The notes beneath the pieces were generated by a model. It searched no databases. It had not been told where the DNA came from and worked only from the letters and a program-made list of their open reading frames with translations. The translations under genes were made by a program, and so were the position numbers. Positions 34,913 to 51,309 of a stretch of 64,000 nucleotides of DNA are shown here, piece by piece (positions within the stretch are counted from its first letter, which is position 1; each line of letters opens with the position of its first letter). This stretch comes from Shouchella clausii (GTDB lineage: Bacteria > Bacillota > Bacilli > Bacillales > Bacillaceae_D): positions 930,001 through 994,000 of the forward strand of contig NZ_BCXJ01000001.1 of NCBI RefSeq assembly GCF_001598215.1. The letters are read 5' to 3'.

Positions 34913-34959
34913 TCATACATTTTCTAATTGAGTATAAAATATCCAGTAGGTATGTAAGG

Positions 34960-34993
34960 AGAGCGTCGGGTGGGTACCGTGACGCTCTTTTTT
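34960..34993 (+). terminator. Orphan terminator
   Basis: AGAGCGTC/GACGCTCT stem with a 13-base loop and a run of seven T residues. It shares 14 bases with the terminator at 33864, so it was probably copied along with the binding-protein fragment. Confidence 0.75.
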
Positions 34994-35518
34994 TGGGGAG
35001 AAGGTGTTGATTAAAAAAAGTTGCCACTTGTTGCGGGGCTCCATGAAACTTGTACTGTGTAATCCTTGGCGATAGAGGTCAGAATAGATAACTGAGGTAG
35101 CGTTAACCCCTTTTTCAATTGTGCGCACTGTTCTAAAGTAAGTCTTTTACCATGGGATGGAGAAGTACTCTGGCATAAACACAGAACTAGAAGTTTCATA
35201 GGATGTATTCCTCAGCGGTTAAGTAGTTAAGAGACCAATGAATTATTACATGATTGAACCAATACACAAAATCAAATAAAGCAAGGTCGAGTTTTTGTTG
35301 ATCAAAAGAACTGCTATTCTTGTATTGACTGACCTAACGATAGAACGTTGATCGGTGTTTGTCCCTAATCTAGAATGACTTTTCTATGCGCTTACCGAGC
35401 GTATCTAATAAAGTATGTTTGACGCCTACGTATCCCTTGAAGTGCTGATAGATAGGGCAAACAAGGTCTTTTCGATGTTTCGATCCGTTCTTCACTAACA
35501 TTGAAGGCAAATATGTAA

Positions 35519-35571
35519 TTTGGCGGCAAATGGGGCACAGGCTGATGCTGGGAAAATATTGAGCTGTATTT
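35519..35571 (+). pseudogene. Degraded fragment of the CUT1 binding-protein gene
   Basis: About 53 bases, starting with TTGGCGGCAAATGGGGCACA, match 33198-33250 inside the intact binding-protein gene with roughly seven differences (my alignment by eye). The surrounding sequence is only faintly similar and contains stops in all frames. It is best explained as the remnant of a duplicated operon end, together with the copied terminator at 34960. Confidence 0.7.
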
Positions 35572-35911
35572 AACAACCTGGAAAGGAGCAAATGATAGGA
35601 TGCTCAATATTAGTCAGTTCAAATAAAAAAAAGGATTGACTATTATCTTATTAGTGTGATAAATTTAACTAAACAGTGTTGTAAATATTAAAAAGTCAAA
35701 GTATAAGCTAATCGATGTTCCGGCTCGTTGGCCTAGCTTTGATGGCATAAAGTGATTGAGTAGTGTATATGAGAGTATAGATGAATGGGCGAAGCTATGC
35801 CCTGACATAATTTGTCCCTGGTTGGAATGTTTTTTCTGACTGGGCTTCTTCATTAGCTATGAAAAAGCCGTTTTGTAAATTTAATAAAAGGAGAAAGGGA
35901 TGACCTAAACC

Positions 35912-35941
35912 TTGTGTAATGTTATGTAGTCGTTGTATAGT
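35912..35941 (+). promoter_or_regulatory. Candidate promoter for the loaP/RiPP cluster
   Basis: TTGTGT (35912-35917) and TATAGT (35936-35941) are 18 bases apart, about 130 bases before loaP. The match is moderate; in such AT-rich DNA chance matches are common. Confidence 0.35.
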
Positions 35942-36073
35942 CATGACGCTAGTAGAGAGGACTCTGTTATAAAAGACTGTTCAATAAAAAGAAAATTATA
36001 AACTAGGTTATACCTCTTATAAATCTACATCAGAATAATTATCTAATAATAATTGGTGTAAAGGGAGATGGAT

Positions 36074-36625
36074 ATGAAGTGGTATGCCTTATTTGTTGAG
36101 TCAAGAAAAGAAGACTTCGTTAAGAAAATGATAAAGAAATATATAGACTGTTCAAACATAACAGTCATTGTTCCGAAACGAAAATTAATTGAACGTAAAC
36201 AAGGAATAAATCAACTGGTTTATAAGAATCTTTTTCCTGGTTATGTGTTTGTCTATACTGTAATGGATGTGGACTTATATTATCAATTAAAACAGGTACC
36301 GCGCTTTTACAAACTGCTTAATTACAAACATGACTATCAATCAAAAGAAACAAAACACCATCCTTTTACAGAGATAGATACAGATGAAATGCGTCCTGTT
36401 CTAAGCCTAATTAATAATGAAGAAATAATCGACTTTTCGACTATATATACGGAAGGTTCAGAGATAAGAGTTATTGATGGTCCTTTAAAAGGTAAAGAAG
36501 CAATTATAAAGAGAATAAATAAGCGAAAAGGTAGGGCGAAAATTTGTATAGAACTGTTTGCAGAGAATAAATTTTTGGATGTAGGGATTGAAGTGCTTTC
36601 AAAAGGGAAAATGAAGAGTGTATAA
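36074..36625 (+). CDS. loaP: LoaP-type specialised NusG paralogue (processive antiterminator)
   Basis: 183 residues from ATG 36074, spaced six bases from AAGGGAG (an ATG at 36068 abuts that site). The N-terminal NGN domain begins KWYALFVESRKEDF and contains NLFPGYVFVYT; a C-terminal KOW domain has GSEIRVIDGPLKGKEAII. LoaP proteins bind an RNA hairpin in the leader of long biosynthetic operons, such as the difficidin and macrolactin operons of Bacillus velezensis, and let RNA polymerase pass terminators. As first gene of the island, it is expected to act on the leader at 36626-36898 and on the terminator at 40376. Family assignment is firm, target inferred. Confidence 0.88.
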   Translation: MKWYALFVESRKEDFVKKMIKKYIDCSNITVIVPKRKLIERKQGINQLVYKNLFPGYVFVYTVMDVDLYYQLKQVPRFYKLLNYKHDYQSKETKHHPFTEIDTDEMRPVLSLINNEEIIDFSTIYTEGSEIRVIDGPLKGKEAIIKRINKRKGRAKICIELFAENKFLDVGIEVLSKGKMKSV

Positions 36626-36898
36626 TTTTATAGTCCTTGGAGGATATCGTGAGCTATCTTTGTTTACTTGTACTCATTTTGGTTTAGATACTGCAAGATT
36701 TTTGTAGGTGAAAATGGTTATTCCAATGAATATAGTTAGTCAATTCCCGCTTTATCTGCTTGGGCAGACTAGTAAGGTGGAGCAGGAACTCTCACAAAAT
36801 AGCTAATTCTCCAATAGTGAAAAAAACAAAGCAGAGGCTAGCTATTCTATTGTTGGCATTTATCATTTTTTATTATAAGTTTGAAAAAAGGTGTATGT
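36626..36898 (+). promoter_or_regulatory. Leader RNA between loaP and the biosynthetic genes; probable LoaP target
   Basis: 273 non-coding bases with several hairpins: CTGCAA/TTGTAG near 36690, TCTGC-TTGG-GCAGA at 36755-36768, and AATAGCTA (36798-36805) with TAGCTATT (36839-36846). The last competes with a CCAATAG/CTATTG pairing, and a T-rich stretch follows at about 36860. Mutually exclusive pairings before a U-rich tract suggest an attenuator, the kind of place where LoaP loads. I cannot confirm the specific LoaP hairpin from memory. Confidence 0.45.
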
Positions 36899-38038
36899 AT
36901 GAATGTGACAGAATTGCTAACAGTTTCGATAATTGTTGAAAGGAATATACAGTATAAAATCACTAAAAATAATTACGAAAACAAATATTTAGTAGATGAT
37001 GAAAACATTCAAAGAATTGACTATTCAATGAGAAAATCGCCATACAAAGACTTTAATGAGGAATTTTTGGAAAGGAAAGGTGTTACAAATAAAAGGAATT
37101 TTAGAAGTAAAATAGAGATGATAAATGTAAAAAATCTTTTAGACGAATGGTCCATAATCAATAGTGGTATTTTAAAAGAGTCCAACGATATAAATATAAC
37201 ATTAAGTACAAATTACATAAAAAAATATAGTATCTTCCCTATCTATAAGGATTTTAATCTTTCTATAAACACAGAAAACTTTATTATTGGTAGTATGACT
37301 ATTTCTGAGAGTACTATCAATTTTTCAGTTTCAAGTATAAATACACTTTATCACGAATTAAATCGAGTTTTAAAGAAGTTAATAAATAACAAAGAAAATT
37401 ATATTGGAAATACAGTGGGAATAAAAGGAAAATACAATTTATTTTTCGATCCTTTTGTTTCCTCAATTTTTTTCCATGAATTAGTAGGCCACGGTTTAGA
37501 AGAAGGATTCTTGAAAAAAGGGGATAAGGTGGGCCCTTTAAATCTGAGTGTTTATCAAGCATGTCTTGATGATTTAAGTGTACCAAGAACGCCCAAATAT
37601 CAAAAACAATTACTTATTAAGAATGGATTTGTAATAGTTGATAAAATTGAAATACAAGGACATAGAAAGTCTATAAGACATTCACCTTCAATTAGATTGA
37701 ATAATTTAATCATCGATGGTGGGTTTAACAGTAAGCCAAACTTTGTGGAGAAAGAGATTTCATATATTAAATGTTGTAATGTAGGATTAGCTGAATTTTA
37801 TGAAGGATACATTATATTGGAAATAAAGAATGGTTTGTTAATTAGTGATAGTAAAGATTATAAAAGGATAGAAAGATTAATATTAAAGATACATGTCAAC
37901 GAAGTGTATAAACACTTCAAACATCTTTATGACGATTATGAGACTGTAAGGGGTATATGTACAAAGAATAATGATACCCTTCCGACAGTTAACCACTCAC
38001 CATCTATATTATTCTTAGATACCTATGTGGAGAGCTAA
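36899..38038 (+). CDS. TldD-like metalloprotease of the RiPP cluster
   Basis: 379 residues from ATG 36899 (AAAAAGGTG upstream; an alternative TTG lies at 36881). The zinc site of TldD is present: His193-Glu194-Leu-Val-Gly-His198 in FHELVGHGLEEG, and a third ligand, Cys354, in RGICTKNNDTLP, which lines up with the GMCGKDGQ region of TldD. RHSPSIRLNNL corresponds to the family's substrate-strand segment. It is about 100 residues shorter than E. coli TldD. TldD/TldE heterodimers trim unfolded peptides, for example mature microcin B17, and stand in for leader peptidases in some PQQ-like pathways. The gene after it is its natural TldE partner. Confidence 0.82.
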   Translation: MNVTELLTVSIIVERNIQYKITKNNYENKYLVDDENIQRIDYSMRKSPYKDFNEEFLERKGVTNKRNFRSKIEMINVKNLLDEWSIINSGILKESNDINITLSTNYIKKYSIFPIYKDFNLSINTENFIIGSMTISESTINFSVSSINTLYHELNRVLKKLINNKENYIGNTVGIKGKYNLFFDPFVSSIFFHELVGHGLEEGFLKKGDKVGPLNLSVYQACLDDLSVPRTPKYQKQLLIKNGFVIVDKIEIQGHRKSIRHSPSIRLNNLIIDGGFNSKPNFVEKEISYIKCCNVGLAEFYEGYIILEIKNGLLISDSKDYKRIERLILKIHVNEVYKHFKHLYDDYETVRGICTKNNDTLPTVNHSPSILFLDTYVES

Positions 38039-38039
38039 T

Positions 38040-38981
38040 ATGAAATGGCAAAATATTTTATTAGAATCTAAAATGATTGACTTTGGATTAAAAATTAAAA
38101 CCACTGTAAAAGAAAGAATAAAAGCTTTCAGAATTATATACGAGCATAATTATGGAACTGCGGTAGATTATAGTGGAAATGATGAATTGCTTGTTGAAAA
38201 AGCTATTAGGAATTCTGTTAGTTTTCCTAAAAATAAGCTCGACTTTTATCCCTTAACTAAAAGCGAGCAATTGGACAATGATCGACCTAAGCAGCTAGGG
38301 GTAGGAAAATATTTAATATTTAACTTATTTCTGAAAAATGAACAGAATATTTCGATAGAAGAAAAAACTTTTTTCCAAATAAATGCTTGTATTATAAATG
38401 AAAAAAAACTTATAAATGCAAAATGCAGTAAAGAGAAAATTTTTGAGCACCCATGGGTTATTTCACCATTGGCATTATCTAAAATCATATTAAATGAGTG
38501 GTCTTCAATTCTTAGAATGGAGAAAAAATCATTTGAATTTCCATGTGATATTAAAATAATAGATCGGGCAACAAAAATGAAGTATGATTTCGAAGGAACT
38601 TTAAAACAAGAAACTTTATTTGTATCAGAGGGGGAAGTTATTAATTATGCTTACAATCTAGAAAAAGCGAATGGGAACTTAGATTTGCTTAATGGTCAAG
38701 GTGGTATTAATGGAATATTTTTAACAGACTTATACTTGATTAGTAATGATGTTTCTCCATGGCCAGACTTTGAATTTTATTATGTTGAAGATGTTCACAG
38801 TATTAAAAATAATATGTTTTTAGTTACTTTCAGAAACGTATTTAATAAAAACATAGAGCTCGTAAAAATAAATAAACACAAATTGTTTACAAACTATGAG
38901 TGGCTAGAAGAAAGAGGAAGAGGAATTTTTCCCTGGAATGTGCCTTACTTACTAATTAAAAACCCATATAGTATTAAGTAA
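38040..38981 (+). CDS. TldE/PmbA-like inactive partner of the TldD protease
   Basis: 313 residues from ATG 38040 with GGAG upstream; the preceding gene stops at 38038. It has no HExxxH motif. NGQGGINGIFLTDLYLISND near residue 223 and the overall length and order fit the non-catalytic TldE/PmbA subunit, which shapes the cleavage chamber with TldD. Similarity is weak, so the identification rests partly on position. A lipid- or peptide-binding role cannot be excluded. Confidence 0.6.
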   Translation: MKWQNILLESKMIDFGLKIKTTVKERIKAFRIIYEHNYGTAVDYSGNDELLVEKAIRNSVSFPKNKLDFYPLTKSEQLDNDRPKQLGVGKYLIFNLFLKNEQNISIEEKTFFQINACIINEKKLINAKCSKEKIFEHPWVISPLALSKIILNEWSSILRMEKKSFEFPCDIKIIDRATKMKYDFEGTLKQETLFVSEGEVINYAYNLEKANGNLDLLNGQGGINGIFLTDLYLISNDVSPWPDFEFYYVEDVHSIKNNMFLVTFRNVFNKNIELVKINKHKLFTNYEWLEERGRGIFPWNVPYLLIKNPYSIK

Positions 38982-38995
38982 GAGGATGTGAAGTA

Positions 38996-40207
38996 TTGAA
39001 AAATAAAAATTTATGGATCTTAATGTTAGGCATTACAGGAGCCGAATTTGGAATGTGGTTTGGTTTAGTTGGTAACTTGAATTATTTACAAAATAGTTTA
39101 GATTCAAGCCTGTTGCAATCACTAATATTATTATCAGGCGTAATTGTCGGTACTTTGTTTGGTCCTTATGCAGGGAGCTTAATTGACAAGACCAGTAAAA
39201 AGAATATCCTGCTTTATGCATCAATTGCGAGGATAATTGCGGTTTTGGTTATGTTTTTGGCTATATTATATAATTCTGTGCTATTGGTTATTGGATATAG
39301 TGTATTAATGGGGATTTCTGCCTCGTTCTACTTTCCAGCTATAAATGCATTGATACCGATGATTGTCACTCAGAAGCAATTAACATTTGCAAATGTCTTA
39401 CAAAATAATCTGATGACCATTATTCGTATAATTGGAGCAGCTTCAGCAGGTGTCTTATTAGTTTCTGTTTCGCTATATCATTTGTACATAATTTCATTGA
39501 TATTTTACTTGGTACTTCTTTTTTCTATTTTTTTCCTTAACATAAACGAAAGCGATTTAACTCTTAATACTAAGAAGAATGAAATCAAGTTTAGAGAGAT
39601 CCTGCCAATTCTTAAGAATGAGAAGATAATTTTCATACTATTATTGCTCTCTTTTGTACCGTACGTATTTATATCTGGATTTAATTTAATGGTAATAGAA
39701 ATTAGCAATATACAAAATTCAGTCGCAATTACAGGTTTATTATACGCAACTGAAGGTATATGTATACTTTTGGCTGGGTTTTTAATCATCAAAGTTAATA
39801 GAAGTAACTTTATATTATATATAATCTGCTTTTCTTGTTTTTCAATGGCATTGTCACAATTCATTTTATCGTCTTCTAATCAAATGTATATTCCATTCAT
39901 TGCTTTTGCAATATTTGGTCTTTCTGCAGGAATCTTTATACCCGTGTCAAATACCTATTTCCAAAAAAATATTGAGCCTAATTATCATGGAAGGTTTTTC
40001 GCCTTTAAGAGAATATTAGAAAACTTGATTGCTCAATTTTCATTAGTGCTTATTGGATTTTTATTAGACTTTATCGGTTTCAATTCAATGATGTTCTTTT
40101 TTGGCATAATATCATTAATTATAGTATCTATATGTAGTTACTATTTATTAATTGATAGAAAATTAACTATACCAATGAAGGGAGGTGAAAAAAATGAAAA
40201 ATTTTAA
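38996..40207 (+). CDS. MFS exporter of the RiPP cluster
   Basis: 403 residues starting at TTG 38996 (GAGGATGTG upstream). About 12 membrane helices; the first half carries GTLFGPYAGSLIDKTSKK between helices 2 and 3, the MFS motif A of drug and macrolide effluxers. It probably exports the finished peptide product and gives self-resistance. The last 14 bases overlap the precursor gene, including that gene's ribosome site, so the precursor is translated after the transporter. Confidence 0.88.
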   Translation: MKNKNLWILMLGITGAEFGMWFGLVGNLNYLQNSLDSSLLQSLILLSGVIVGTLFGPYAGSLIDKTSKKNILLYASIARIIAVLVMFLAILYNSVLLVIGYSVLMGISASFYFPAINALIPMIVTQKQLTFANVLQNNLMTIIRIIGAASAGVLLVSVSLYHLYIISLIFYLVLLFSIFFLNINESDLTLNTKKNEIKFREILPILKNEKIIFILLLLSFVPYVFISGFNLMVIEISNIQNSVAITGLLYATEGICILLAGFLIIKVNRSNFILYIICFSCFSMALSQFILSSSNQMYIPFIAFAIFGLSAGIFIPVSNTYFQKNIEPNYHGRFFAFKRILENLIAQFSLVLIGFLLDFIGFNSMMFFFGIISLIIVSICSYYLLIDRKLTIPMKGGEKNEKF

Positions 40208-40364
40208 ACCAGCTTTTGAAGCTACTCAAGTAACATCAATGCAGTGGAATAGAACTGCCCCAATGGCAGTTGCTGAAGCTGCGAACTTGTCTAAACCCGC
40301 TAATATTTCAAAAGAAACTCTTAATGAACTCAAACAAGCAATTCAAGAAGAAATGAAACTTTAA
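40194..40364 (+). CDS. RiPP precursor peptide (56 residues)
   Basis: The frame begins at ATG 40194 behind a strong GGAGGTG and ends at 40364. It opens MKNFKPAFEATQVTSMQWNR; then TAPMAVAEAANLSKPAN (21-37) and a helical, charged tail (38-56, ending EEMKL) follow. The start resembles PqqA, which begins with a KPAF segment followed by a VT-containing core (compare KPAFIDLRLGLEVTLY of Klebsiella PqqA), and the neighbouring enzymes are of PqqE/PqqD type. There is one Trp (18) and no Tyr or Cys. Thr, Ser, Gln and Trp at 11-21 are plausible modification sites, and the C-terminal helix may be a recognition follower. A terminator follows, as is common after precursor genes. Function is inferred from context. 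Confidence 0.8.
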   Translation: MKNFKPAFEATQVTSMQWNRTAPMAVAEAANLSKPANISKETLNELKQAIQEEMKL

Positions 40365-40375
40365 GTACCGAAAAA

Positions 40376-40400
40376 ACTAGGAGGTTTCCTCCTAGTTTTA
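40376..40400 (+). terminator. Intrinsic terminator between precursor and tailoring genes
   Basis: A perfect 9-bp stem ACTAGGAGG/CCTCCTAGT with a TTT loop, six A residues before and TTTTA after. It should end most transcripts just after the precursor, giving excess peptide over enzymes, and is a likely place for LoaP to permit read-through into the enzyme genes. Confidence 0.85.
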
Positions 40401-40421
40401 CTCAATATTAGGAGGGGTGTT

Positions 40422-41570
40422 ATGTTTTTACGTGGACCTGCCCATGTGGATTTTAATCTTACAAATGGTTGCAATTTAGCTTGTTCTCATTGTCACAGCT
40501 CATCTGGCCCTAGGTTAGATAATGAATTAAAAACCGACGAGATTCTGGAAGTAATAAATGATTTGCATAAGATGGGTACGCTTAAAATTGCCTTTGCAGG
40601 TGGCGAACCTTTTATCAGAAGAGATATTATAGAGATTTTGTCATTTGCATGTAACCTACCAGGCTGGACAGTCTCAGTAATTACAAACGGATTATTTTTA
40701 CATGAAAGAAATGTGAATTTGTTGAAAGAAAAGTGTCCCAATCTAATGATTAATGTAAGTATAGATGGATCGACCCCAGAAAACTATACCGTTTTAAGAA
40801 AACAAGTTAACAATCCAAATTTTGATCCTGTGCCAGTATTTGAGAGGGTCAAAGATGGAGTCAAAAAAGTCGTTGATGCAGGATTTAATACATCTATTAA
40901 CTTTACTGTTACTAAAGCAACTGAACAAGACCTTTTTGATACTTATAAATTAGCGATGAATCTAGGAGCAAATGCTCTTGTTGGAATAAAGTTCTTCCCT
41001 GGTGGTTATGGAAGAAAGCATTTAGATAAATTTGAGTTACCTTTTAATACATGGGCAAAGATATTTTCAAAGCTAACTAAAGAAAAATTAAGTGGAAATT
41101 ATGAACATTTACAAATATCTATTCCGGCCCCATGGGAGTTTTATTTACCGTTAATCGAACAGGATATTGATATTGAGCAAGCAGAGAAAGTTTGGAATTA
41201 TAGAAGCCCATTAAGGGAAAGTGGTTACAAATCACACAATGATATAGGTGATATTTTAGGTAATGCAGAATTATCAGTTTCTTCTAATGGAGAGGTCTAT
41301 CCTTCCGTTTTGGTTATTGGTGAGGAAGAACTTGAATGTGGAAATCTACGTAAGGAAAGCATATTTGAAATATGGAAAAGATCAAGTATCCTTACAGAGA
41401 TTAGAGGGCTAACGATTGAAAAGTTAGAAGGGAATTGTAGAATGTGTAGTTTGAAAGATATTTGTGGTGGAGGTTCAAGGTCTAGAGCTTATGCAAAAGA
41501 GAAGAAATTGTATGCAAAAGATTATATGTGTCCTATAGTCAATTCACTAAGGGAGTTAGAATATGTCTGA
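40422..41570 (+). CDS. SPASM radical SAM peptide-modifying enzyme (PqqE/AlbA-like)
   Basis: 382 residues. The radical SAM cluster is Cys17-x3-Cys21-x2-Cys24 in NGCNLACSHCHSS, followed by the SAM-binding AFAGGEPFIRRD. The C-terminal SPASM domain keeps Cys306, Cys339, Cys342, Cys348 and Cys370 for auxiliary iron-sulfur clusters. Enzymes of this type install carbon-carbon, thioether or other cross-links, or excise groups, on ribosomal peptides, using a PqqD-like partner to hold the leader; here that partner is encoded next, overlapping by eight bases. The likely substrate is the peptide at 40194. The reaction cannot be predicted. Confidence 0.9.
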   Translation: MFLRGPAHVDFNLTNGCNLACSHCHSSSGPRLDNELKTDEILEVINDLHKMGTLKIAFAGGEPFIRRDIIEILSFACNLPGWTVSVITNGLFLHERNVNLLKEKCPNLMINVSIDGSTPENYTVLRKQVNNPNFDPVPVFERVKDGVKKVVDAGFNTSINFTVTKATEQDLFDTYKLAMNLGANALVGIKFFPGGYGRKHLDKFELPFNTWAKIFSKLTKEKLSGNYEHLQISIPAPWEFYLPLIEQDIDIEQAEKVWNYRSPLRESGYKSHNDIGDILGNAELSVSSNGEVYPSVLVIGEEELECGNLRKESIFEIWKRSSILTEIRGLTIEKLEGNCRMCSLKDICGGGSRSRAYAKEKKLYAKDYMCPIVNSLRELEYV

Positions 41571-41877
41571 TATGATTATTATTGGAGATAAGTGTGATGC
41601 AATTAGGTACTATAGAGATAGTAAAGGTTGTGAATTTCGTGCTTCTGGCGTGATTATTTCTGGAAACGAAGATTTGGCTAAATTATTCGATATAATAAAT
41701 GAGAAAAAACCTACTGATGGACTACCCGAAATTTCGAAATTAAGTGGGTTGGATTCGAAACAGGTAATAAAGATTTTGAGCTCTTTGTTTAACGATTTAT
41801 ATCAATCTGGATTAAACGTTCCATATCTTTACAAGGATTGGAATGAATACGTTAAAAATGAAGAAAGGGGTGTTTAA
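41563..41877 (+). CDS. PqqD-like RiPP recognition element protein
   Basis: 104 residues. The N-terminal beta-strands (IIIGDKCDAIRYYRDSKGCEF segment) and the helical remainder (GNEDLAKLFDIINEKKPT and ISKLSGLDSKQVIKILSSLFNDLYQ) fit the winged-helix-like PqqD/RRE fold that binds leader peptides. Similarity is low and rests on size, predicted pattern and its place overlapping the SPASM gene. Expected to deliver the precursor to one or both radical SAM enzymes. Confidence 0.65.
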   Translation: MSDMIIIGDKCDAIRYYRDSKGCEFRASGVIISGNEDLAKLFDIINEKKPTDGLPEISKLSGLDSKQVIKILSSLFNDLYQSGLNVPYLYKDWNEYVKNEERGV

Positions 41878-41880
41878 TAC

Positions 41881-43353
41881 TTGAAAGATGTTGTAGTAAT
41901 TGCTCCGTTTAGAAGGCCTACTTTTCGTACAGCAATATCAAAAAAGTATCCTGTTGACGAACCCTGGGATTCTCCACCGCTAATAATAACAGGTGAATTA
42001 TTAAATAATGGATTATCGGCTACTTATTTCCCCTTAATAAATATTTTCAATGCTTACAATGAGGACACAGATAAGGAGATTTTAGAACAATTTATACTGG
42101 ATAACCCTGCAAAAATTTACTTGTTTTCTTCTGATCATTTTATACCTAGTAGAAGTACAGCATCATTATATGGTATGAGAATTTTATCAAGAATTATAAA
42201 ATCTAAAAATAAGAATTCAATTATTGGATCAATTGGTAGAATTAGTACTGTTTTGGAAAACGATATTTTTACTGAAGTAGAAGAGTTAGATTTTTCTATC
42301 GTAGGTGAGCCAGAAGAATTAATAGGTAATATGATTAATGAAATTCTCGGAGAAGGATTGGATTCCGTAAATAATAAATATAGCTGTTTTTGTCTGCGGG
42401 GCTCTATAAAAAAACCAGAACCAGCAGTAATTAAGGACTTAGAGAACATCTCTTTACCAGCTTATGAAGTGCTAGGACCAGCTTTTGAAATGTTTGAAAA
42501 ATACAGTAGTAAAAAAACTCGTACCATTCCTTTCAGTATGAGGACAAGCTTAGGGTGCAAGTTTAAATGTAAGTTTTGTAGTGGTGTGCCTAATTGGTTG
42601 AACTACAGGAAAAAAAGTAAAGAAAAAGTAAGTGCTGAAATTCAGCATTTTAAAAAACATGTTGGAAATAAAGGTTATATTTGCTTTTTAGAAGACGAAA
42701 TATTTACAAGAGATGTTGAGCATGTCAGAGATATCACAAAAGTCTTTAAAGATAATGAAATTTTTTTAGAGGGGTTGTACACTCATTCAACTCTACTAAC
42801 CGAGGAAATAGCTGAATACTTGGTGCCAATCACCAATAGAGTTTATATCGGCCTTGACAATGCAAATGATAAAATTTTACGCAAAATGGCTAAAGGTCAA
42901 AACATGGACATAGTGTTATCGACAATTGAAAAAGCAAGAACTGTTGGATTGAAGGTTCATTTGGAGTGGATAATTGGTACACCAGAGGAAGATGTAGATT
43001 CGTTGATAATATCATTGAGTACGATTTTCAATTTATTAAACACTGGTGTAGTTGATAATATTAATACTTACGTTTATTGCCCGCATCCAGGAACTGAATA
43101 TGCGGTTAATTGTAAAAAGTATAATATCAATATAGTTGCAGATTTAGAAGATATTCAAGAATCAGGGGGGATTCCTGCCTCATATACAGGCAAATTAAGT
43201 AGAAATGAAATTTTCTCTGCTTATTTGATTAGTCAATTATTAATTGCTGAGGTTAAAAATAACATAAAAATTAATGGGTATACAAATGAAGTCACTTATC
43301 CTAACAGTAATGAACTGAAGAGAATTTTTGGATTTTTAAAACAGAATAAATAG
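41881..43353 (+). CDS. Cobalamin-type radical SAM enzyme (B12-binding domain class)
   Basis: 490 residues, starting at TTG 41881 after GGGGTG. The N-terminal 160 residues resemble the Rossmann-like B12-binding domain of class B radical SAM methyltransferases (VVVIAPFRRPTF, SPPLIITGELLNNGLSATYFP), although the DxHxxG cobalamin-ligand motif is not evident. The radical SAM cluster is Cys226-x3-Cys230-x2-Cys233 in LGCKFKCKFCSG, then GYICFLEDEIF and later LEWIIGTPEED. Members methylate unreactive carbon or phosphorus atoms, or rearrange substrates. Within this cluster it may C-methylate the peptide. No corrinoid synthesis gene is nearby, so cobalamin would have to be made elsewhere or taken up. 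Confidence 0.85.
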   Translation: MKDVVVIAPFRRPTFRTAISKKYPVDEPWDSPPLIITGELLNNGLSATYFPLINIFNAYNEDTDKEILEQFILDNPAKIYLFSSDHFIPSRSTASLYGMRILSRIIKSKNKNSIIGSIGRISTVLENDIFTEVEELDFSIVGEPEELIGNMINEILGEGLDSVNNKYSCFCLRGSIKKPEPAVIKDLENISLPAYEVLGPAFEMFEKYSSKKTRTIPFSMRTSLGCKFKCKFCSGVPNWLNYRKKSKEKVSAEIQHFKKHVGNKGYICFLEDEIFTRDVEHVRDITKVFKDNEIFLEGLYTHSTLLTEEIAEYLVPITNRVYIGLDNANDKILRKMAKGQNMDIVLSTIEKARTVGLKVHLEWIIGTPEEDVDSLIISLSTIFNLLNTGVVDNINTYVYCPHPGTEYAVNCKKYNINIVADLEDIQESGGIPASYTGKLSRNEIFSAYLISQLLIAEVKNNIKINGYTNEVTYPNSNELKRIFGFLKQNK

Positions 43354-43376
43354 AAAACAACTGAAGGGAGATTAAA

Positions 43377-45494
43377 ATGAGTCAAAAAAATATCTATATA
43401 TTAGGTGTAAGCATGTCGAATCATGATAGAGCAGCAGCCTTATTGAAAAATGGAGCTATTTGCTCTGCTATTGCTGAGGAAAGGCTGGATAGAAGAAAAA
43501 AATCGGACGGCTTTTATGCTAGTAGACCTAATAATATAGTAATACCCCCTTTGGCAGCAATAACGTATGTGTTAAGGGAAGAGGGAATTCAACTGAATGA
43601 TGTAGACCTACTTGTATGTGGGAGATCAATTCAATCGTGCAAAGAAACGATTTTACAATATATCCCTATTTCTGAAGATAAAGTTGTGGAAGCTATTTTA
43701 CCTTCTCATCATTTGATGCATGCGTATAGTGCTTTTGGAACTAGCCCATTTAAAGAAAGTGCAGTTCTCGTCTTGGACGAACAAGGCCATAGGTTAAATA
43801 ATGGGAAGTATGAGAAAATCTCAATGTATAAGGGATCGGACGGTGCCCTTAAGAAAGTTAGTAATACTTTTGGAGATTCACAAAGTATTAGTTTAGGGAT
43901 GTTTTTTGATATATTTTCATCATTAACAGGACTAAGTGAAGCGGGAGTTCCTTCTGCAGGAAAATTAATGGGCCTTGCTCCTTTTGGAAAACCGCAAGAT
44001 GATTGGAAGCAACTAATTGAGATCAAAGATGGAGATGTAATAATAGATATTAAGAAAATAGATGAATTTTTTGAAGGTGTTTTACCTCAATATGAAACTA
44101 ATAACGTGATTGTTGAAAAGATAGACGATTTCTTAGAAAAATATATACCTGTTCATTGGAATACTCCACTTGCATATAATCTCGCTTATAAAGCACAATC
44201 GGAATTATCGAAAGCTATAGAATCATTATCCTTATTTCTATTGAAGAAAACAAATTGTCAATATCTTTGTTATGCTGGTGGTGTTGCTTTAAACTGTTCA
44301 GCTAATAGTAAATTAAAAAAACAGGGTTGGAAAGATATTTATGTGCACCCAGCAGCTACAGATGATGGGGTTGCTGTAGGACTGTGCCAATATGGATGGA
44401 TTGAATTACTTGAACAACCTAGAAAGTTGATCAAATTTAATCCTTTTTTGGGAAAAACATATACAAATGAAACAGTTATTCAAGAACTTAAGAGCACAAA
44501 TCTACTAAAACACAGTGAAAAAATAGATGTAGTCCACACTGTATCGGAATATATTGCAAAAGGCGAAATTGTTTGTTGGTTTCAAGGTTCAAGTGAGTGG
44601 GGGCCAAGAGCATTGGGTTCTAGAAGCATTCTAGCAAACCCCTTAGAAAAGTCAATTACTGAGAAGATTAATAAAAAGGTTAAATTTCGGGAGCGTTTTA
44701 GACCTTTTGGTATTAGTATCACAGAGGGTGATTATGAACAGATTTCTAATTTCAAAGATATACCCAAGTCTCTATCGCCGTATATGCTAAATGTGGTACC
44801 AGCTAAAGATATTTTAAAAGAAGTCCGTCATGTTGATGGGACTATCAGGTTTCAGGAAGTATGTAAATCATTTCAGCCTCTATATTACAAGTTGATAAAA
44901 CAGGTAGGTAGAAAGACGGGATTAAATGCCGTTCTTAATACCTCTTTTAATGTGATGGGTGAACCGTTGGTAGAAAAACCGGATGAAGCAATAAGACAAT
45001 TCTTTTTATCTGGAGCAAATGTTTTGGTAATGGGAGACATATGTATTGATAAGAGCAACATCCCAATTAATGAATTAGAAAGAATAGAAAATATGTTTAA
45101 GAAAAAATCAAATATAAATACATTGAACTTTGTATTAAGTCTTGAATCAGCTAATTTTGAAAATGAAGCGGACCAATTGATGAAACGTTATAGTCCAGAG
45201 AAGCAAAGCCCACTAACAAAAAGGAAGTATCATGCATTTTGTTTACGCCAGGCAATAAGAAAAAATGACCATGAGGGTATACATTTACATATAAAAGAGT
45301 TAATGACATATATTAGCTATCCTCAAGAGGCAAATATCGTCATTAGTGCTTTAAGGGATTATCTTCCAAATAGTTATAACCTTGCAGGTTTACTAACCCA
45401 GGTATCAAATCAATATAATGCCTATGAATTTTTTGAAAGGTTGCTGTTAGTTAGCGATAAGGAGAATAAAGATGGAAGCTATTTATTACGATAA
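43377..45494 (+). CDS. O-carbamoyltransferase (NodU/CmcH/TobZ family) with C-terminal extension
   Basis: 705 residues. The N-terminal Kae1-like part has the carbamoyl-adenylate metal and nucleotide sites (GVSMSNHDRAAALLKNG, ILPSHHLMHAYSAF, CYAGGVALNCSANSKL); the C-terminal YrdC-like part holds GSSEWGPRALGSRSILANP and LNTSFNVMGEPLVEKP. Such enzymes use carbamoyl phosphate and ATP to carbamoylate a hydroxyl, as in cephamycin, novobiocin and tobramycin synthesis. About 140 residues at the end (from about 565) go beyond the usual 570-residue length and match nothing I know. In a RiPP setting the hydroxyl would be a Ser/Thr or one made by the P450s downstream. Confidence 0.9.
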   Translation: MSQKNIYILGVSMSNHDRAAALLKNGAICSAIAEERLDRRKKSDGFYASRPNNIVIPPLAAITYVLREEGIQLNDVDLLVCGRSIQSCKETILQYIPISEDKVVEAILPSHHLMHAYSAFGTSPFKESAVLVLDEQGHRLNNGKYEKISMYKGSDGALKKVSNTFGDSQSISLGMFFDIFSSLTGLSEAGVPSAGKLMGLAPFGKPQDDWKQLIEIKDGDVIIDIKKIDEFFEGVLPQYETNNVIVEKIDDFLEKYIPVHWNTPLAYNLAYKAQSELSKAIESLSLFLLKKTNCQYLCYAGGVALNCSANSKLKKQGWKDIYVHPAATDDGVAVGLCQYGWIELLEQPRKLIKFNPFLGKTYTNETVIQELKSTNLLKHSEKIDVVHTVSEYIAKGEIVCWFQGSSEWGPRALGSRSILANPLEKSITEKINKKVKFRERFRPFGISITEGDYEQISNFKDIPKSLSPYMLNVVPAKDILKEVRHVDGTIRFQEVCKSFQPLYYKLIKQVGRKTGLNAVLNTSFNVMGEPLVEKPDEAIRQFFLSGANVLVMGDICIDKSNIPINELERIENMFKKKSNINTLNFVLSLESANFENEADQLMKRYSPEKQSPLTKRKYHAFCLRQAIRKNDHEGIHLHIKELMTYISYPQEANIVISALRDYLPNSYNLAGLLTQVSNQYNAYEFFERLLLVSDKENKDGSYLLR

Positions 45495-46440
45495 AAAAAA
45501 CAATAAATGGATAGTCGTTAGCAACCAATATAGTCGAATTATTCTTGAATCCAAAAAATTCAGAACTCCGAAAGTCGAAGAAATGAGTGAGGATACACCT
45601 AGTTTTTTCCTTGCTTTAACAATAGCCGATGAAAAAGATTATAAAAGATTAAAGCATAATTTTTCCAGTTATTTTACTAAGAAAAAAGTGGCAGAATTAA
45701 AGGAGAATATATTCAAAAGACACGCTGCTAGAATTCTAAAAGAGCAAAATTACGGCAACAATGCAGAATGTATTCATAGTAGGATAATAGAACCTTATTG
45801 TACTTATGCCATCATTGATATGCTGGGGCTTGAGGAAAATTTAGGTAAAGAACTTGTAACCGCATATAGAATTGGTAACAAATACGCAAAAGAGAATAAT
45901 TCTAAGGGACAGGTTTACTTTAGTTATGTTAACCACATGTTAAAAGACATGATAAATGATCAAACGGTCATAAGTACTCAGGGTTATATAAATGAATTAA
46001 AAAATAATGAGAAACTCACAGAAATAGAAAAGGTGAGTATGATAATTCCGTTTATAGATATGTTAGCGTCAAGTAAAACAATGGAATTACCGATGTTATC
46101 CTATAAAAATTACAAAAACAACAAAATGGACAATGTAAGCTTATCTTATATTGTTGAGGAAAGCGCTCGTCTTTTAGATGGCTTGTTTCTTAGTAGGTTT
46201 GCGCTGGAAGATTTTAGTTTAGACGGAAAAGTGATTAAATCTGGTGAAAAGGTTAATGTGCGTGTTTCTCAAGCTTCTAAGGACAATTCTGTATTTAAAT
46301 GTCCTAATATGTTTCAAGCAAACCGCCATAACCTAAGTGAGAGTTTAAGTTTTGGAGTTGGAGATCATAGATGTCTTGGAAAAAATTTTACAGTGGCGTT
46401 AATTACTACGTTGTTAGAGGAGTTAAATAAAATTGAGTAA
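45472..46440 (+). CDS. Short atypical cytochrome P450 (1)
   Basis: 322 residues, about 80 less than usual bacterial P450s; the missing part is at the N-terminus. The heme loop FGVGDHRCLGKNF puts the ligand at Cys300, and the ExxR helix is EESARLL. The I-helix consensus (A/G)Gx(D/E)T is absent, with IDMLASSKTMELP in its place, so proton delivery to oxygen must differ from standard hydroxylases; such enzymes often perform couplings or unusual oxidations. The gene starts inside the carbamoyltransferase gene (AAGGAG upstream) and overlaps the second P450. Transcription and stoichiometry are thus tied to the cluster. Confidence 0.85.
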   Translation: MEAIYYDKKNNKWIVVSNQYSRIILESKKFRTPKVEEMSEDTPSFFLALTIADEKDYKRLKHNFSSYFTKKKVAELKENIFKRHAARILKEQNYGNNAECIHSRIIEPYCTYAIIDMLGLEENLGKELVTAYRIGNKYAKENNSKGQVYFSYVNHMLKDMINDQTVISTQGYINELKNNEKLTEIEKVSMIIPFIDMLASSKTMELPMLSYKNYKNNKMDNVSLSYIVEESARLLDGLFLSRFALEDFSLDGKVIKSGEKVNVRVSQASKDNSVFKCPNMFQANRHNLSESLSFGVGDHRCLGKNFTVALITTLLEELNKIE

Positions 46441-47485
46441 ATGTCCGATGAGATTTAATGAAGATGATCATGCATGGATAATTGAGGGTTTAGAGGAATC
46501 AAAATATATACTCGAGTCTCAATATTTTCGGAAGCCTAAACAAAATGAGTTTGAGCATGGCACTCTTATGTCACCAAGCTTTTTCCTGGCATTAGAATTA
46601 ACGCCAGAAGAGGAACACGAGAGAATTAGAAAAGAATTTGCTAAATCATTTTCCAACAACAGGATGAAGAGAATTGAAAAAGAAATTCTTGAACCGAACG
46701 CAACTCTTTTTTTGGATAGTATGACTGATATAAATATTACTTCTATTGAAAAGAATTTTTTAGAGTTGTATTGTGATAAGGCATTTAAAGAAATTGTCGG
46801 TTTAAATAAAGAGTTTAGCAAAGAAATCCTTGCAATATATAAAGTTTGTGACAACTTCTTTAAAAAAGATGGTCCAAAATCCCTTCATGGAAGAGCAGGG
46901 TACAGGTTAATGTATAGTAAACTTATAGACTATTGCAAGAAATACAAAAAAAATGAGGAGCAACTTAGTTTTATAGGGTATATGGTAAATAATGATGAGG
47001 TTCGTATAGAAGAAATAGTTTATTATGTTATCCCTTTTTTGGAAATGATTTCTTTGAAGATCCATATAGAATTACCTCTTGAATTAATAAAACATTTGTC
47101 AAAACTTCCTACTGATATTAGAGAAGATTTCATTAAAAATAGAAAGAATTTAAATCTGGCAATTGAAGAAGCGGCTAGATTAATGAAACCAAATAGGGCA
47201 GAAGGTCCATATATTACTAGGGTACCTATTCAGGATATTAAAGTTAACAATCAGCTAGTTTTAGAGGGAGAAAGAGTTGTATTAAAAATAGTAGAAAGTG
47301 GTTTGGACGAGCGCACGTTCAAAGATGCAAATGACTACAATCCATGGAGAGAGAACCTCAATCTTCATTTAGCTTTCGGGGCTGGATTACATCGGTGTTT
47401 AGGTAAAAACTTAGCAAAATCAGTTGCCGCTTGTGCTGCCACTCAACTTTTTATTAAATATCCGAATATAAATATTTCAAGCTAA
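46433..47485 (+). CDS. Short atypical cytochrome P450 (2)
   Basis: 350 residues from TTG 46433. Heme loop FGAGLHRCLGKNL with Cys322 and ExxR in EEAARLM. Like its neighbour it has no classical I-helix motif (PFLEMISLKIHIELP) and a short N-terminus. The two P450s share the pattern SPSFFLALELT / TPSFFLALTIA near residue 45, so they are paralogues. No ferredoxin or reductase gene accompanies them, so electrons come from host proteins. Last gene of the RiPP cluster. Confidence 0.85.
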   Translation: MSKCPMRFNEDDHAWIIEGLEESKYILESQYFRKPKQNEFEHGTLMSPSFFLALELTPEEEHERIRKEFAKSFSNNRMKRIEKEILEPNATLFLDSMTDINITSIEKNFLELYCDKAFKEIVGLNKEFSKEILAIYKVCDNFFKKDGPKSLHGRAGYRLMYSKLIDYCKKYKKNEEQLSFIGYMVNNDEVRIEEIVYYVIPFLEMISLKIHIELPLELIKHLSKLPTDIREDFIKNRKNLNLAIEEAARLMKPNRAEGPYITRVPIQDIKVNNQLVLEGERVVLKIVESGLDERTFKDANDYNPWRENLNLHLAFGAGLHRCLGKNLAKSVAACAATQLFIKYPNINISS

Positions 47486-47549
47486 TTTTATGTGTATCAA
47501 TGCTTCTTGTTCACTCATTAATTACACTAAGAGAGTGCAATTAAGAAGC

Positions 47550-47645
47550 GATTATTATTTTTTGAAGAGCGGTTAGTAATAATGAGGTTAGAGATTAGCG
47601 AGGAAGATTCCAGGGGGACATATTATAGAGGAGAGACGATAGCCA
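47550..47645 (+). pseudogene. Degraded duplicate of the Nudix-box region
   Basis: About 95 bases, beginning ATTTTTTGAAGAGCGGTTAG, match 47765-47857 in the Nudix pseudogene directly downstream, with scattered substitutions and small indels. It no longer encodes a protein. Relic of a tandem duplication or of a partial copy brought in with the island. Confidence 0.65.
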
Positions 47646-47649
47646 AAAA

Positions 47650-48168
47650 ATGATTATACAGGAACAACTAAACAATAAAAGTTTACCTTGCCCAAATATT
47701 ATTCAAATGGTGTTATCAAATGTTCCACCAGCAACTCATTTAGTCACCGCAGTCCATTGTCTATCATTTTTTGAAGAACGGTTAGTACTAACGAGGTTAG
47801 AGAATAGAGGCTGGGAAATTCCAGGAGGACATATGGAAGAAGGTGAAACGATAGTCGAAGCTTTAAGAAGAGAGGACTAGGCGGGAGCTTATATAAGTTC
47901 GGAAACCTTAATAGGGTATGAAAAGATTACGTTATTAGATAGTAGACAAGATGGTTACCCCTATCCTTACCCATCAAGTTATCAGTTATTTTTCGCAGCA
48001 ATAGCGGAGAAGTTTGTTAAGATAAATGACCCAACAGGACAAGCGAAAGAAAGGTACTTCTTAGACTTGAACAATAAGCGTGACCAAAAGAGTCAATGGG
48101 TAGTTGACCATTATCACCTATGTCTAGCCGCTTATAATCGTTTATGTCACATAAAGAAGGATGATTAA
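47650..48168 (+). pseudogene. Nudix hydrolase gene with in-frame stop
   Basis: The frame opens at ATG 47650 and contains most of a Nudix box (PGGHMEEGETIVEALRRE). TAG at 47878-47880 stops it exactly where the box should continue with EE-x-G, then the same frame runs on as AGAYISSETLIGYEK to a normal end at 48168, about 172 codons in all. Comparison with the motif suggests that about two codons are also missing at the stop. Catalytic glutamates are lost, so even a read-through product would be dead. It marks the right edge of the island. Intact relatives hydrolyse nucleotide diphosphate derivatives. Confidence 0.8.
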
Positions 48169-48189
48169 ATGAACTTACTCGCTTCAAGG

Positions 48190-48224
48190 CCAGCACCAAC
48201 GCCTGCTCGCTTCGTTGGTGCTGG
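48190..48224. repeat. Strong inverted repeat between convergent genes
   Basis: CCAGCACCAACG and CGTTGGTGCTGG form a perfect 12-bp stem with an 11-base loop. No T-run follows on the forward strand (TCATTA), so it may be a factor-assisted terminator or an RNA-stabilising end. Confidence 0.5.
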
Positions 48225-48333
48225 TCATTACGAATTCGTGGTACACGTGATTTTAGTTGGTGTATGAAGGAGCAATTGCAGGATTCTAGGCGCCTATCAG
48301 TCCGTTTTATAACGATCCGCATATTTTCTAAAT

Positions 48334-49707
48334 TCAGTTCAAATCAGAATGCAAATCATTCCCGGTCTCTGTTTGATAGGCTCCGAAATCATCAAACTCT
48401 TCATCCTTCCATATCCAATACGCTTGATTTTTGCTGCTATAGTGATTATAGTCGACGCTATTTCCTTCATTTTCGCTGAACTCGTTTGTGATCATTCGTC
48501 CGTCTTCATTCGCTTTGATGTAGTTGTTATGCAATTCATTGTTTCTAGTGTCGAAGGCTAGATTGATTTCACCATAACCAAGATGCTTCCCGTTATTTTC
48601 TGTTAACTCGTTTTCTTTAATGATACAATTTTCCGTCCTTCCACGATCTTCGTCATAGCCGCCAAGGGTAATGCCTGCTCCATGATTGTTATAAATGCGG
48701 TTCCTTGATACTTCCACATTTGAAGTGGCACCGCCGTCATGCTCACTTGCCAGTTCAATTCCAAAATCATTGTGGTGAACGTCATTGTCGATAATTTTTA
48801 CAGCTTTGCCTCCATCCACGTATATGCCGGCGGCTGAGTAATCTTCCCCATAGGCGGGATTGCCAAAAGAGGAACTATTGTATACATGATTTTCTTCAAT
48901 TACACCATTTCTAGCCTGATCTTGCGAAGGATTCGGCGCGATCCCTTCAAAGCCGATGATGTCGATGCCAATATTGTTGTTATCGTGTACAATATTCTGC
49001 GCAATACGAAAGCCGTCTACATTTCCATTAATCGCCATCGCTTCGCTCGCCCCTAGTTTCAGGTTATACAACTCATTTTGGGTAATAGCAAGCTGTTCCA
49101 ATGAAGTTGACGAGTTACCGTAAACGGCAATGCCGTGTGCATTACCGCCTCCTATTCGCTGATCTGCGTTTGTTCCCATATCGTGGATGCGATTCCCTAT
49201 CATTTCAATATTCCTGCCGCTACCGCTCACATGAATGCCAACGGGCGTGACATCGGGTGATGATGTATAAAAATGGCGTATTTCAATGCCTTCGACACGT
49301 ACATAACTGGCATTGTCAATACGAATGATGCCATCTTCGACTTGCTTTACACCCTTGCCGTCTATTATTGCCGTTTGTCCCTCCACATTGCGCAAAGATA
49401 TGTAACCTTGGTCAAGCGATCCAGATTTATTGATGCTCACCGTTTGGTGATACACTCCCTCCATTAGGAATACAGTGCCACCTGGTTTGACTAATTCGAT
49501 TGCTTTCTGGATACTGGCAAACGGCGCATTCATTGTTCCAGGATTCGTATCTTTGCCTGGCGGTGAGACGTAGTAATCTCTTATTTCCGTTTCGGCTGTT
49601 GCTGGCAGCCTCGCCCCTGAAGTTGGATATAGTTTGGTGCTGAAGTAAGCGGCACTTCCTACTAACAATACGAGGAAACAAGTCCAGAAAATCTTTTTTT
49701 TGTTCAT
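48334..49707 (-). CDS. Secreted or membrane-anchored right-handed parallel beta-helix protein
   Basis: 457 residues from ATG 49707. An N-terminal hydrophobic helix (FWTCFLVLLVGSAAYF) is a signal or anchor. YYVSPPGKDTNPGTMNAPFASIQKAI and GGTVFLMEGVYHQ (about residues 45-90) are the opening of the DUF1565/pectate-lyase-like fold, and repeated N-rich rungs such as NEL, NRI and NDV with HDN or YNN steps fill the rest. Relatives are polysaccharide lyases, epimerases or adhesins acting outside the cell. Which reaction, if any, is uncertain; a link with the GH88 operon 18 kb away is possible, since GH88 needs lyase products. Confidence 0.8.
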   Translation of the reverse strand: MNKKKIFWTCFLVLLVGSAAYFSTKLYPTSGARLPATAETEIRDYYVSPPGKDTNPGTMNAPFASIQKAIELVKPGGTVFLMEGVYHQTVSINKSGSLDQGYISLRNVEGQTAIIDGKGVKQVEDGIIRIDNASYVRVEGIEIRHFYTSSPDVTPVGIHVSGSGRNIEMIGNRIHDMGTNADQRIGGGNAHGIAVYGNSSTSLEQLAITQNELYNLKLGASEAMAINGNVDGFRIAQNIVHDNNNIGIDIIGFEGIAPNPSQDQARNGVIEENHVYNSSSFGNPAYGEDYSAAGIYVDGGKAVKIIDNDVHHNDFGIELASEHDGGATSNVEVSRNRIYNNHGAGITLGGYDEDRGRTENCIIKENELTENNGKHLGYGEINLAFDTRNNELHNNYIKANEDGRMITNEFSENEGNSVDYNHYSSKNQAYWIWKDEEFDDFGAYQTETGNDLHSDLN

Positions 49708-50025
49708 GATAACCACATCCGTGATTTGAATTTTTCCATCTATTTCACATCTTTATCTTTACTCAGTTTTTTTGTTGAGCTGCTGTATATGTAGTAGTTC
49801 ATAAGTGTTCAAGTTTGGGGGCGAGTCATAATTTCCCGCACCGGTTTTCATCAATGATCACCTAAAAGTACAAGATGATTTCTCTTTTGTATTAGAATAG
49901 CCTAGTTCTCCGTCATTGTATAGAATAGTGTTTATTCTATTGAAGGTGAAATTGCTGATGCTACTCAAAGGGTGTTGACTCGTCATAAGAATGAAGGATA
50001 CCGTCTTAAAAATCGTATATAACAA
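49708..50025. other. Divergent intergenic stretch
   Basis: About 320 bases before the DMT transporter's promoter. I see no coding frame, only AT-rich sequence with a local dyad (TAGAATAGTGTTTATTCTAT near 49920). Confidence 0.5.
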
Positions 50026-50055
50026 TTGACAATGTTCAAAGGATGCTCCTATACT
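50026..50055 (+). promoter_or_regulatory. Sigma-A promoter of the DMT transporter
   Basis: TTGACA (50026-50031) and TATACT (50050-50055) with 18-base spacing. Transcription would start near 50062, leaving a leader of about 135 bases that includes the hairpin at 50134. Confidence 0.65.
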
Positions 50056-50133
50056 ATGAACGGAACAGAATAACTTACCTAAAACCTATTTGGGAAGTTG
50101 TGGACTTTTCTAGAGAGCAATTTCTATTTTCGC

Positions 50134-50168: not shown

Positions 50169-50196
50169 GTGTTCAATAAAGGAGGAAACTGGCGCG

Positions 50197-51111: not shown

Positions 51112-51127
51112 AAATGTGGGATAAAAG

Positions 51128-51292: not shown

Positions 51293-51309
51293 AGTGGTGG
51301 TGAACGAAA

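Follow-up and report, generated by a model that had tools for sequence, protein, structure and literature searches.

The locus and its genes

We examined a 64,000 nucleotide stretch of the Shouchella clausii contig NZ_BCXJ01000001.1 (positions 930,001 to 994,000; hereafter the window), from an alkali-loving soil bacterium, and in it a gene cluster at 36068–47485. The open reading frame coordinates give eleven genes there, all on the + strand, in the order LoaP, TldD-like, TldE-like, major facilitator superfamily (MFS) protein, short peptide, SPASM-type radical S-adenosylmethionine (SAM) enzyme, PqqD-like protein, B12-type radical SAM enzyme, carbamoyltransferase, P450a and P450b (Table 1). A first-pass annotation had read this DNA as a cluster for a ribosomally synthesized and post-translationally modified peptide (RiPP). 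Every gene that it named is present, on the same strand and in the place given, and its count of ten should be eleven, the sum of its own list. Adjacent genes overlap by 8–23 bases or are separated by 3–57 bases, with the exception of LoaP and the TldD-like gene, which are 255 bases apart. The cluster is richer in A+T than both flanks, as had been noted, with a G+C content of 31.7% against 46.6% (8001–34000) and 43.9% (48001–64000).

Table 1. Coordinates of the cluster features within the window
Feature	Position	Strand	Basis
LoaP antiterminator (NusG paralogue)	36068..36625	+	NF033641 204 bits, cut-off 125
TldD-like metalloprotease subunit	36881..38038	+	PF19289 (PmbA_TldD_3rd) 28 bits, cut-off 22; HExxxH reads HELVGH
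TldE-like partner subunit	38025..38981	+	Position; 31% and 32% identity to TldD-adjoining relatives
MFS exporter	38996..40207	+	PF07690 (MFS_1) 109 bits; 52–53% identity in two relatives
Precursor peptide, 56 aa	40194..40364	+	Leader with FKPAFE, core SMQWNRTAP, follower with ISKETLNELK
Terminator-like hairpin	40373..40399	+	Directly 3' of the peptide gene; 12-bp stem, z -2.87
SPASM-type radical SAM enzyme	40422..41570	+	PF04055 93 bits; PF13186 (SPASM) 26.7 bits, cut-off 21.5; without auxiliary cluster I (AuxI) ligands
PqqD-like discrete RiPP recognition element (RRE)	41563..41877	+	AlphaFold2 model, predicted local distance difference test (pLDDT) 85.5; best PDB match TbiB1 RRE with leader
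B12-type radical SAM enzyme	41881..43353	+	PF04055 63 bits; closest solved relative MgmA (9ccb)
NodU/TobZ-type carbamoyltransferase	43377..45494	+	PF16861 (Carbam_trans_C) 181 bits; PF02543
Short cytochrome P450 (a)	45472..46440	+	PF00067 38 bits, cut-off 22.8; haem-Cys loop FGVGDHRCLG
Short cytochrome P450 (b)	46433..47485	+	PF00067 40.8 bits, cut-off 22.8; haem-Cys loop FGAGLHRCLG
Segment missing from close relative G029 (putative insertion)	34913..47646		Synteny is lost after 34912 and regained at 47647

A conserved precursor peptide

The peptide gene is present in all four full clusters, which are those of the window, Alkalihalophilus marmarensis, Shouchella lonarensis and plasmid pCP1 of Deinococcus radiodurans. 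The same enzyme set and the same peptide core thus occur in four species of two phyla (Bacillota and Deinococcota), and no relative with the gene set and without the peptide was found among them. The string SMQWNRTAP is identical in all four, and 20 positions are invariant, including F-K-P-x-F-E, S-M-Q-W-N-R-T-A-P and a C-terminal I-S-x-x-x-L; the window peptide aligns with those of relatives at 75% and 71%. A gene-encoded precursor conserved alongside its enzymes, as expected of a RiPP, is found in these four clusters and in a Streptomyces variant, and M-x-W-x-R is the sole core element common to all five peptides.

Comparison of codons over the whole peptide shows constraint, as judged from the coding sequences. 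The dN/dS values are 0.241/1.831 between the window and S. lonarensis and 0.301/1.278 between A. marmarensis and S. lonarensis; for the window–A. marmarensis pair dS is saturated at a dN of 0.225, with 22 silent and 15 changed of 56 codons. The conserved blocks, which were selected for their conservation, have 5–8 silent and 0–1 changed of 15 codons. Against Deinococcus 30–34 of 52–56 codons are changed (dN 0.63–0.69; dS 1.95–2.74 or saturated), so little is kept outside the invariant blocks. When the window and all collected loci were translated in six frames (1.97 million residues), the motif F.P.FE.{4,9}M.W.R, which was defined post hoc from the peptides already seen, occurred only at the peptide genes of these clusters.

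The cluster is genuinely of the RiPP type, its peptide family is well founded, and the one unusual enzyme feature is the loss of AuxI from the SPASM enzyme. The first-pass reading is borne out in this respect: the peptide accompanies the enzymes in every relative found, and the RRE-like fold of the PqqD-like protein supports it. Its most likely output is a small, heavily modified natural product of ribosomal origin, derived from M-Q-W-N-R-T-A-P, the core of the 56-residue peptide.

Distribution of the cluster

Among the 41 genomes of the family search, four have a close SPASM gene, counting the window's own genome and a species-mate (G039), whose SPASM gene is 100% identical. A scan of a collection of 84,980 species gave five loci, of which three are close (S. 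tritolerans, A. marmarensis and S. lonarensis); L010 and L011 are weak matches (26–28%) and were set aside. The clusters of A. marmarensis and S. lonarensis have in common the genes for the MFS protein, peptide, SPASM enzyme, PqqD-like protein, B12-type enzyme, carbamoyltransferase, P450 and TldD/E, the last being placed at the 3' end of the cluster in A. marmarensis. The two P450s of the earlier annotation are present in the window, but the other three clusters have one each (that of S. lonarensis being broken), and the P450 pair is therefore not a fixed feature. Between LoaP and TldD in S. lonarensis there is a possible methyltransferase gene (L006, 17297–17866) with weak, sub-threshold Pfam matches, which the other clusters do not have.

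A plasmid search found the SPASM enzyme in 15 D. radiodurans records (60% identity) and one Streptomyces record, and the B12-type enzyme (50% identity; 52% over 88% of its length in one record) in the same number of D. radiodurans records. On pCP1 the genes for the SPASM enzyme, PqqD-like protein, B12-type enzyme, carbamoyltransferase, TldD, TldE, MFS protein and one P450 lie in a row. The peptide gene (L077, 9310–9492), which reads MHFKPTFEVMETKSMQWNRTAPTSGRVMSELKAEQQPATISPAELRKVRAAIKAAVAQAK, lies upstream of an ISDra5 element and has, by eye, a strong ribosome-binding site. It has no entry in the PLSDB table, which is incomplete, in 13 of the 15 records and is listed in two. Over 182 compared bases it is identical in 14 records; NC_000959 differs by one base, which shifts the frame. 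The idea of a dead peptide gene in D. radiodurans, which came from NC_000959, was dropped, as the other 14 have the intact copy. Downstream of the P450 (L077, 20487–22563) there are two genes of the phosphoenolpyruvate (PEP)-utilising and PEP–pyruvate-binding kinds.

The Streptomyces record is a plasmid of Streptomyces jietaisiensis with a related minimal cluster (L078, 11780–18830). Its SPASM relative is 46.5% identical to that of the window, and it also has a PqqD-like protein, a prolyl oligopeptidase-family protein, an O-methyltransferase, an MFS gene and a luciferase-like monooxygenase. No B12-type radical SAM enzyme, carbamoyltransferase, P450 or TldD/E is annotated within the 25 kb stretch. 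Ahead of the SPASM gene lies a 24-residue frame, METFAPSFEAPVGTDAMRWPRHTS, which is absent from the annotation table. This peptide keeps F-x-P-x-F-E and M-x-W-x-R, with the spacing one residue longer, and stops directly after the core; it has no counterpart of S15, Q17, N19, T21 or the follower.

Profile searches at higher ranks, each counting the window's own genome, gave 2 of 398 genomes (SPASM, phylum), 1 of 398 (SPASM, class) and 3 of 397 (B12-type enzyme, order), and added one distant cousin, G570. This locus (L083, 10184–16495) has a 27-residue frame, MKKWIVPKADFVSGRWLKWDKDSVVEE, with two SPASM enzymes, a PqqD-like protein, a B12-type radical SAM enzyme and an MFS-like gene. In viral contigs the back-translated core pattern gave no matches; 59 loci there resemble the SPASM enzyme only weakly, at no more than 38% and in short segments, and were set aside.

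The SPASM enzyme and its lost cluster

The CX3CX2C motif is intact in all five members of the SPASM family. Comparison of cysteine columns and alignment to anSME and SuiB place D277, L284/S285, S295 and S352 of the window enzyme at the AuxI positions. Across the five members the residues there are D at 277, L or I at 284 (followed at 285 by S, C or N), S, T or I at 295, and S at 352. The AuxI cysteines are gone at all four positions in four members and at three of the four in Deinococcus, where residue 285 is the cysteine. The auxiliary cluster II (AuxII) set C339, C342, C348 and C370 is kept in all five, as are C77, C105 and C306. In anSME the AuxI ligands are C255, C261, C276 and C330, the last two being the cysteines of VYPC and CKGGC (PMC6231123); S295 stands opposite the cysteine of VYPC and S352 opposite the last cysteine of CKGGC. 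The seven-cysteine SPASM motif CX9-15GX4C-CX2CX5CX3C-C (PMC6231123) is thus incomplete: CX2CX5C and the last cysteine are present in all five members, the CX3C cysteine is serine in all five, and the GX4C cysteine is replaced by serine in three, threonine in one and isoleucine in one. Twitch enzymes retain the first (AuxI) half (PMC6231123). Both SPASM enzymes of G570 retain the four AuxI cysteines. ChlB has a solved SPASM domain that likewise reads CGGGS in the alignment; a literature search on ChlB found no paper. PADLOC matches of the window enzyme to viperin were rejected as superfamily-level.

An AuxII-only subgroup is known among AhbD enzymes, in which serines and a glutamate replace the AuxI cysteines and which is biochemically unstudied (PMC10452713). 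With the AuxI cysteines lost and AuxII kept, oxidative cross-linking by the window enzyme is not assured.

Recognition, tailoring and export proteins

Neither Pfam nor NCBIfam gives a match for the PqqD-like protein. Its model follows the strand and helix order of an RRE, with a predicted extra first strand and extra last helices, and aligns best with TbiB1, a leader-bound lasso-peptide RRE (TM scores 0.61/0.73, probability 0.98). The definition of RREs and the motifs WxxP, YxxP, LxxP and KPxWxxP have been set out previously (PMC12710340), and FxPxFE may be the recognition stretch of this peptide. The HExxxH of the TldD-like protein is kept in all four clusters; the TldE-like protein has a sub-threshold Pfam match (12.8 bits, cut-off 22).

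For the B12-type enzyme the glutamine C-methylase MgmA is the top match in sequence (E 2.5e-8) as well as in fold (E 4.6e-14), the next matches by fold being TsrM, AprD4, OxsB and TokK. Among NCBIfam models HpnJ scores highest (71 bits, cut-off 578). The Pfam B12-binding domain is above its cut-off only in G570 (33.2, cut-off 32.1), reaches E 0.039 in Deinococcus and is not matched in the window, where the fold model has a mean pLDDT of only 59. Because the model is weak and AprD4 and RimO match as well, cobalamin binding and methyl transfer are not proved.

NodU/TobZ-type carbamoyltransferases have a Kae1-like and a YrdC-like domain and an HHxxHA iron site, and the window enzyme has these domains and HHxxHA. 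It matches TobZ with E 3.5e-62 over profile positions 14–560, has about 130–145 additional C-terminal residues, and the HHxxHA, DEQG and DDG motifs are present in all four clusters. The P450s keep the haem-Cys loop and in the alignment lack the standard I-helix motif, AGxxT.

Transcription signals

The window LoaP is the only above-cut-off LoaP match in its genome. Shuffled sequences fold about as well as the leader RNA that separates LoaP from TldD (z -0.70), so we claim no LoaP RNA element. Hairpins are found directly after the peptide gene in all four clusters folded, with z -3.41 in A. marmarensis, -4.92 in S. lonarensis and -6.19 in Streptomyces besides that of the window; Deinococcus, which has an IS5-like element at this site, was left out. 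A terminator scan gave 12 sites against 6.4 expected, the peptide-gene hairpin not being among them. Promoter matches were at chance level (66 against 64.8 expected), and no Rfam match reached the gathering score.

A possible pathway

The co-occurrence of peptide and enzymes, their conservation, the enzyme families and the loss of AuxI ligands are observed; from them we infer the following reactions, their order, the mode of transcription and the product. The discrete RRE would bind the N-terminal F-K-P-A-F-E and present the peptide. The first modification, by the AuxI-less SPASM enzyme, would fall on M-x-W-x-R, because the Streptomyces cluster retains nothing else of the core and has the SPASM and PqqD-like proteins without the other enzymes. 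The B12-type enzyme, the P450 or P450s and the carbamoyltransferase may act on residues that are invariant only where those enzymes occur, the candidates being Q17, N19, T21 and S15. Our best guess for the B12-type enzyme is C-methylation of Q17, and for the transferase an O-carbamoyl group on threonine, serine or a hydroxyl made by a P450. TldD/TldE would trim the leader, the C-terminal part would be taken off as a follower, and the MFS protein would export the product. Most transcripts probably terminate at the hairpin behind the peptide gene, which would yield peptide in excess of the enzymes, and LoaP, where intact, may favour read-through past it.

On balance we lean towards a RiPP family in which an AuxII-only SPASM enzyme activates a mid-precursor M-x-W-x-R, flanked by an FxPxFE leader and a follower. 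The B12-type radical SAM enzyme, a P450 and the carbamoyltransferase would then complete a tiny carbamoylated product, and one member of the family would be a hidden pathway on D. radiodurans pCP1.

Several observations weigh against this pathway. In S. lonarensis in-frame stops interrupt both LoaP and the P450, the latter also having a frame change, and in Deinococcus the ISDra5 element lies between the peptide and enzyme genes. Of three other records compared with L077, that of strain BRD125 (L075) has one-base gaps in the SPASM and B12-type genes and three in TldE, which may be genuine or sequencing errors, and NC_000959 has one in TldE. Not all copies of the cluster may therefore be active. 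LoaP is intact in one of four clusters, that of the window, and none was found in the 18.6 kb examined around the A. marmarensis cluster or the 20 kb around that of D. radiodurans. The claim that the cluster is "under LoaP" is borne out in the window by the position of the gene beside the operon and weakened by the other clusters; LoaP control would not be general to the cluster family. The Streptomyces PqqD-like protein is only 23% identical to that of the window by alignment, the match of the model to TbiB1 has an E of 0.16, and no PDB match reaches E 0.001 or better. The assignment of residues to enzymes rests on the single Streptomyces contrast. Of the modifications proposed earlier, methylation would depend on a B12-type domain backed mainly by a predicted fold match, and O-carbamoylation has in its favour an enzyme that looks intact and against it a peptide-modifying relative that carbamoylates a lysine nitrogen (PMC13174530). 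Cross-linking is weakened by the absence of the AuxI cysteines, since in the cross-linker SuiB it is AuxI that has been observed to accept the electron (PMC9012708).

Two alternative chemistries for the SPASM enzyme have to be weighed, and because the SuiB acceptor has to be set against GrsA and GrsB, we hold them to be equally probable. The enzyme may be a true oxidative cross-linker that makes a three-residue cyclophane at W-N-R (Trp-x-Arg), as in triceptides and streptide, the electron passing to AuxII, the radical SAM (RS) cluster or an external acceptor; we put this somewhat below an even chance. Its nearest NCBIfam model is WgkB (165 bits, below the cut-off of 650), M-x-W-x-R is the one core element that all five peptides keep, and the extra cysteines C77, C105 and C306 are there in all members. 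Additionally, GrsA and GrsB form C–C bonds in lipids, most likely with the RS cluster only (PMC11186832), so in some cases the auxiliary clusters are dispensable. Against this stands the loss of the SuiB-type acceptor just described. Without AuxI ligands a redox-neutral or decarboxylating reaction is equally possible, at a likelihood likewise a little short of evens: epimerisation, or an AhbD-like oxidative decarboxylation, for example of the FxPxFE glutamate, with any cross-link made by the P450(s). AuxI is lost in this SPASM family, the heme synthase AhbD ranks second among the NCBIfam models (148 bits, below the cut-off of 500), and the P450s are without their usual I-helix motif. AuxII-only AhbDs exist, and in the AhbD of M. 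barkeri the loss of AuxI is said to affect mainly the second decarboxylation (PMC10452713); the AuxII-only forms, however, are those that lack biochemical study, and the invariant glutamate sits in the likely RRE-binding stretch.

That the peptide merely regulates or binds while the enzymes act on a non-peptide small molecule is very unlikely: NodU/TobZ, P450 and B12-type radical SAM enzymes do act mostly on small molecules, as do solved carbamoyltransferase relatives such as TobZ, a decarbamoylnovobiocin carbamoyltransferase and GdmN, but the PqqD-like protein, TldD/E and a strictly conserved peptide occur together in all four full clusters, and Pfam and NCBIfam scans identified no non-ribosomal peptide synthetase, polyketide synthase, sugar or terpene gene among the eleven.

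Comparison with known systems

Several known systems resemble the cluster in part. Like the streptide and triceptide RiPPs (SuiB, WgkB), it has a SPASM-type enzyme, an RRE and a short peptide with a tryptophan two residues before a possible partner (W-x-R); unlike them, it has lost the AuxI ligands and has a discrete RRE, more tailoring enzymes, a follower and TldD/E. With pyrroloquinoline quinone (PQQ) and mycofactocin it shares a SPASM enzyme with a discrete PqqD-type RRE and, probably, trimming to a very small product, and the leader FKPAFE resembles the K-P-A-F of the PqqA leader; it differs in having no Glu-Tyr or C-terminal Val-Tyr core and in its added carbamoyltransferase, B12-type enzyme and P450.

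Carbamoyltransferases in RiPP pathways are "exceedingly rare", with crocagin and StdF as the two precedents (PMC13174530). The std cluster of Streptomyces thermodiastaticus also has an MFS permease and a follower behind a tripeptide core; in contrast with the window cluster, it uses YcaO-TfuA and MNIO enzymes, the main text of the paper makes no mention of a radical SAM enzyme or P450, the modified atom is a lysine nitrogen and its motif SNKEWQE is unrelated (PMC13174530). The B12-type enzyme has the cobalamin radical SAM methylases MgmA, TsrM and TokK among its closest counterparts by fold, and MgmA methylates glutamine, Q17 being invariant wherever the B12-type enzyme occurs; however, the identity is low (10–17%, Foldseek), and AprD4 and RimO/MiaB match too. 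The AuxII-only AhbD of non-methanogenic archaea resembles the SPASM enzyme in having AuxI lost and AuxII kept, and differs in belonging to the heme pathway and having a non-peptide substrate (PMC10452713).

A literature search, which mostly did not extend to subscription papers, found no paper on this enzyme combination or on the D. radiodurans copy. Within that coverage the statement that no described RiPP class matches still holds: the enzyme set was not found together, and the peptide family is defined by a core invariant across Bacillota and Deinococcota. An AuxII-only SPASM enzyme bears on the role of the auxiliary clusters and on whether AuxII alone supports peptide chemistry. With a copy in D. 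radiodurans, a radiation-resistant model organism, direct metabolite and deletion tests are possible, and an apparently undescribed family of peptide natural products is now testable.

Origin of the segment

Since synteny with G029 breaks off and resumes around the cluster (Table 1), about 12.7 kb is absent in G029, in which the flanking genes are about 3.6 kb apart compared with about 16.4 kb in the window. G035 likewise has no cluster between the same flanks. Two short off-register G029 matches within the segment (35519–35566 and 47553–47642) land elsewhere on the G029 stretch. Gain and loss are not separable from G029 and G035 alone; the low G+C content and patchy spread would favour gain. 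At the right edge of the segment, the adjoining NUDIX-like gene (from 47650 on) has a second copy, partial and decayed, at 47553–47642.

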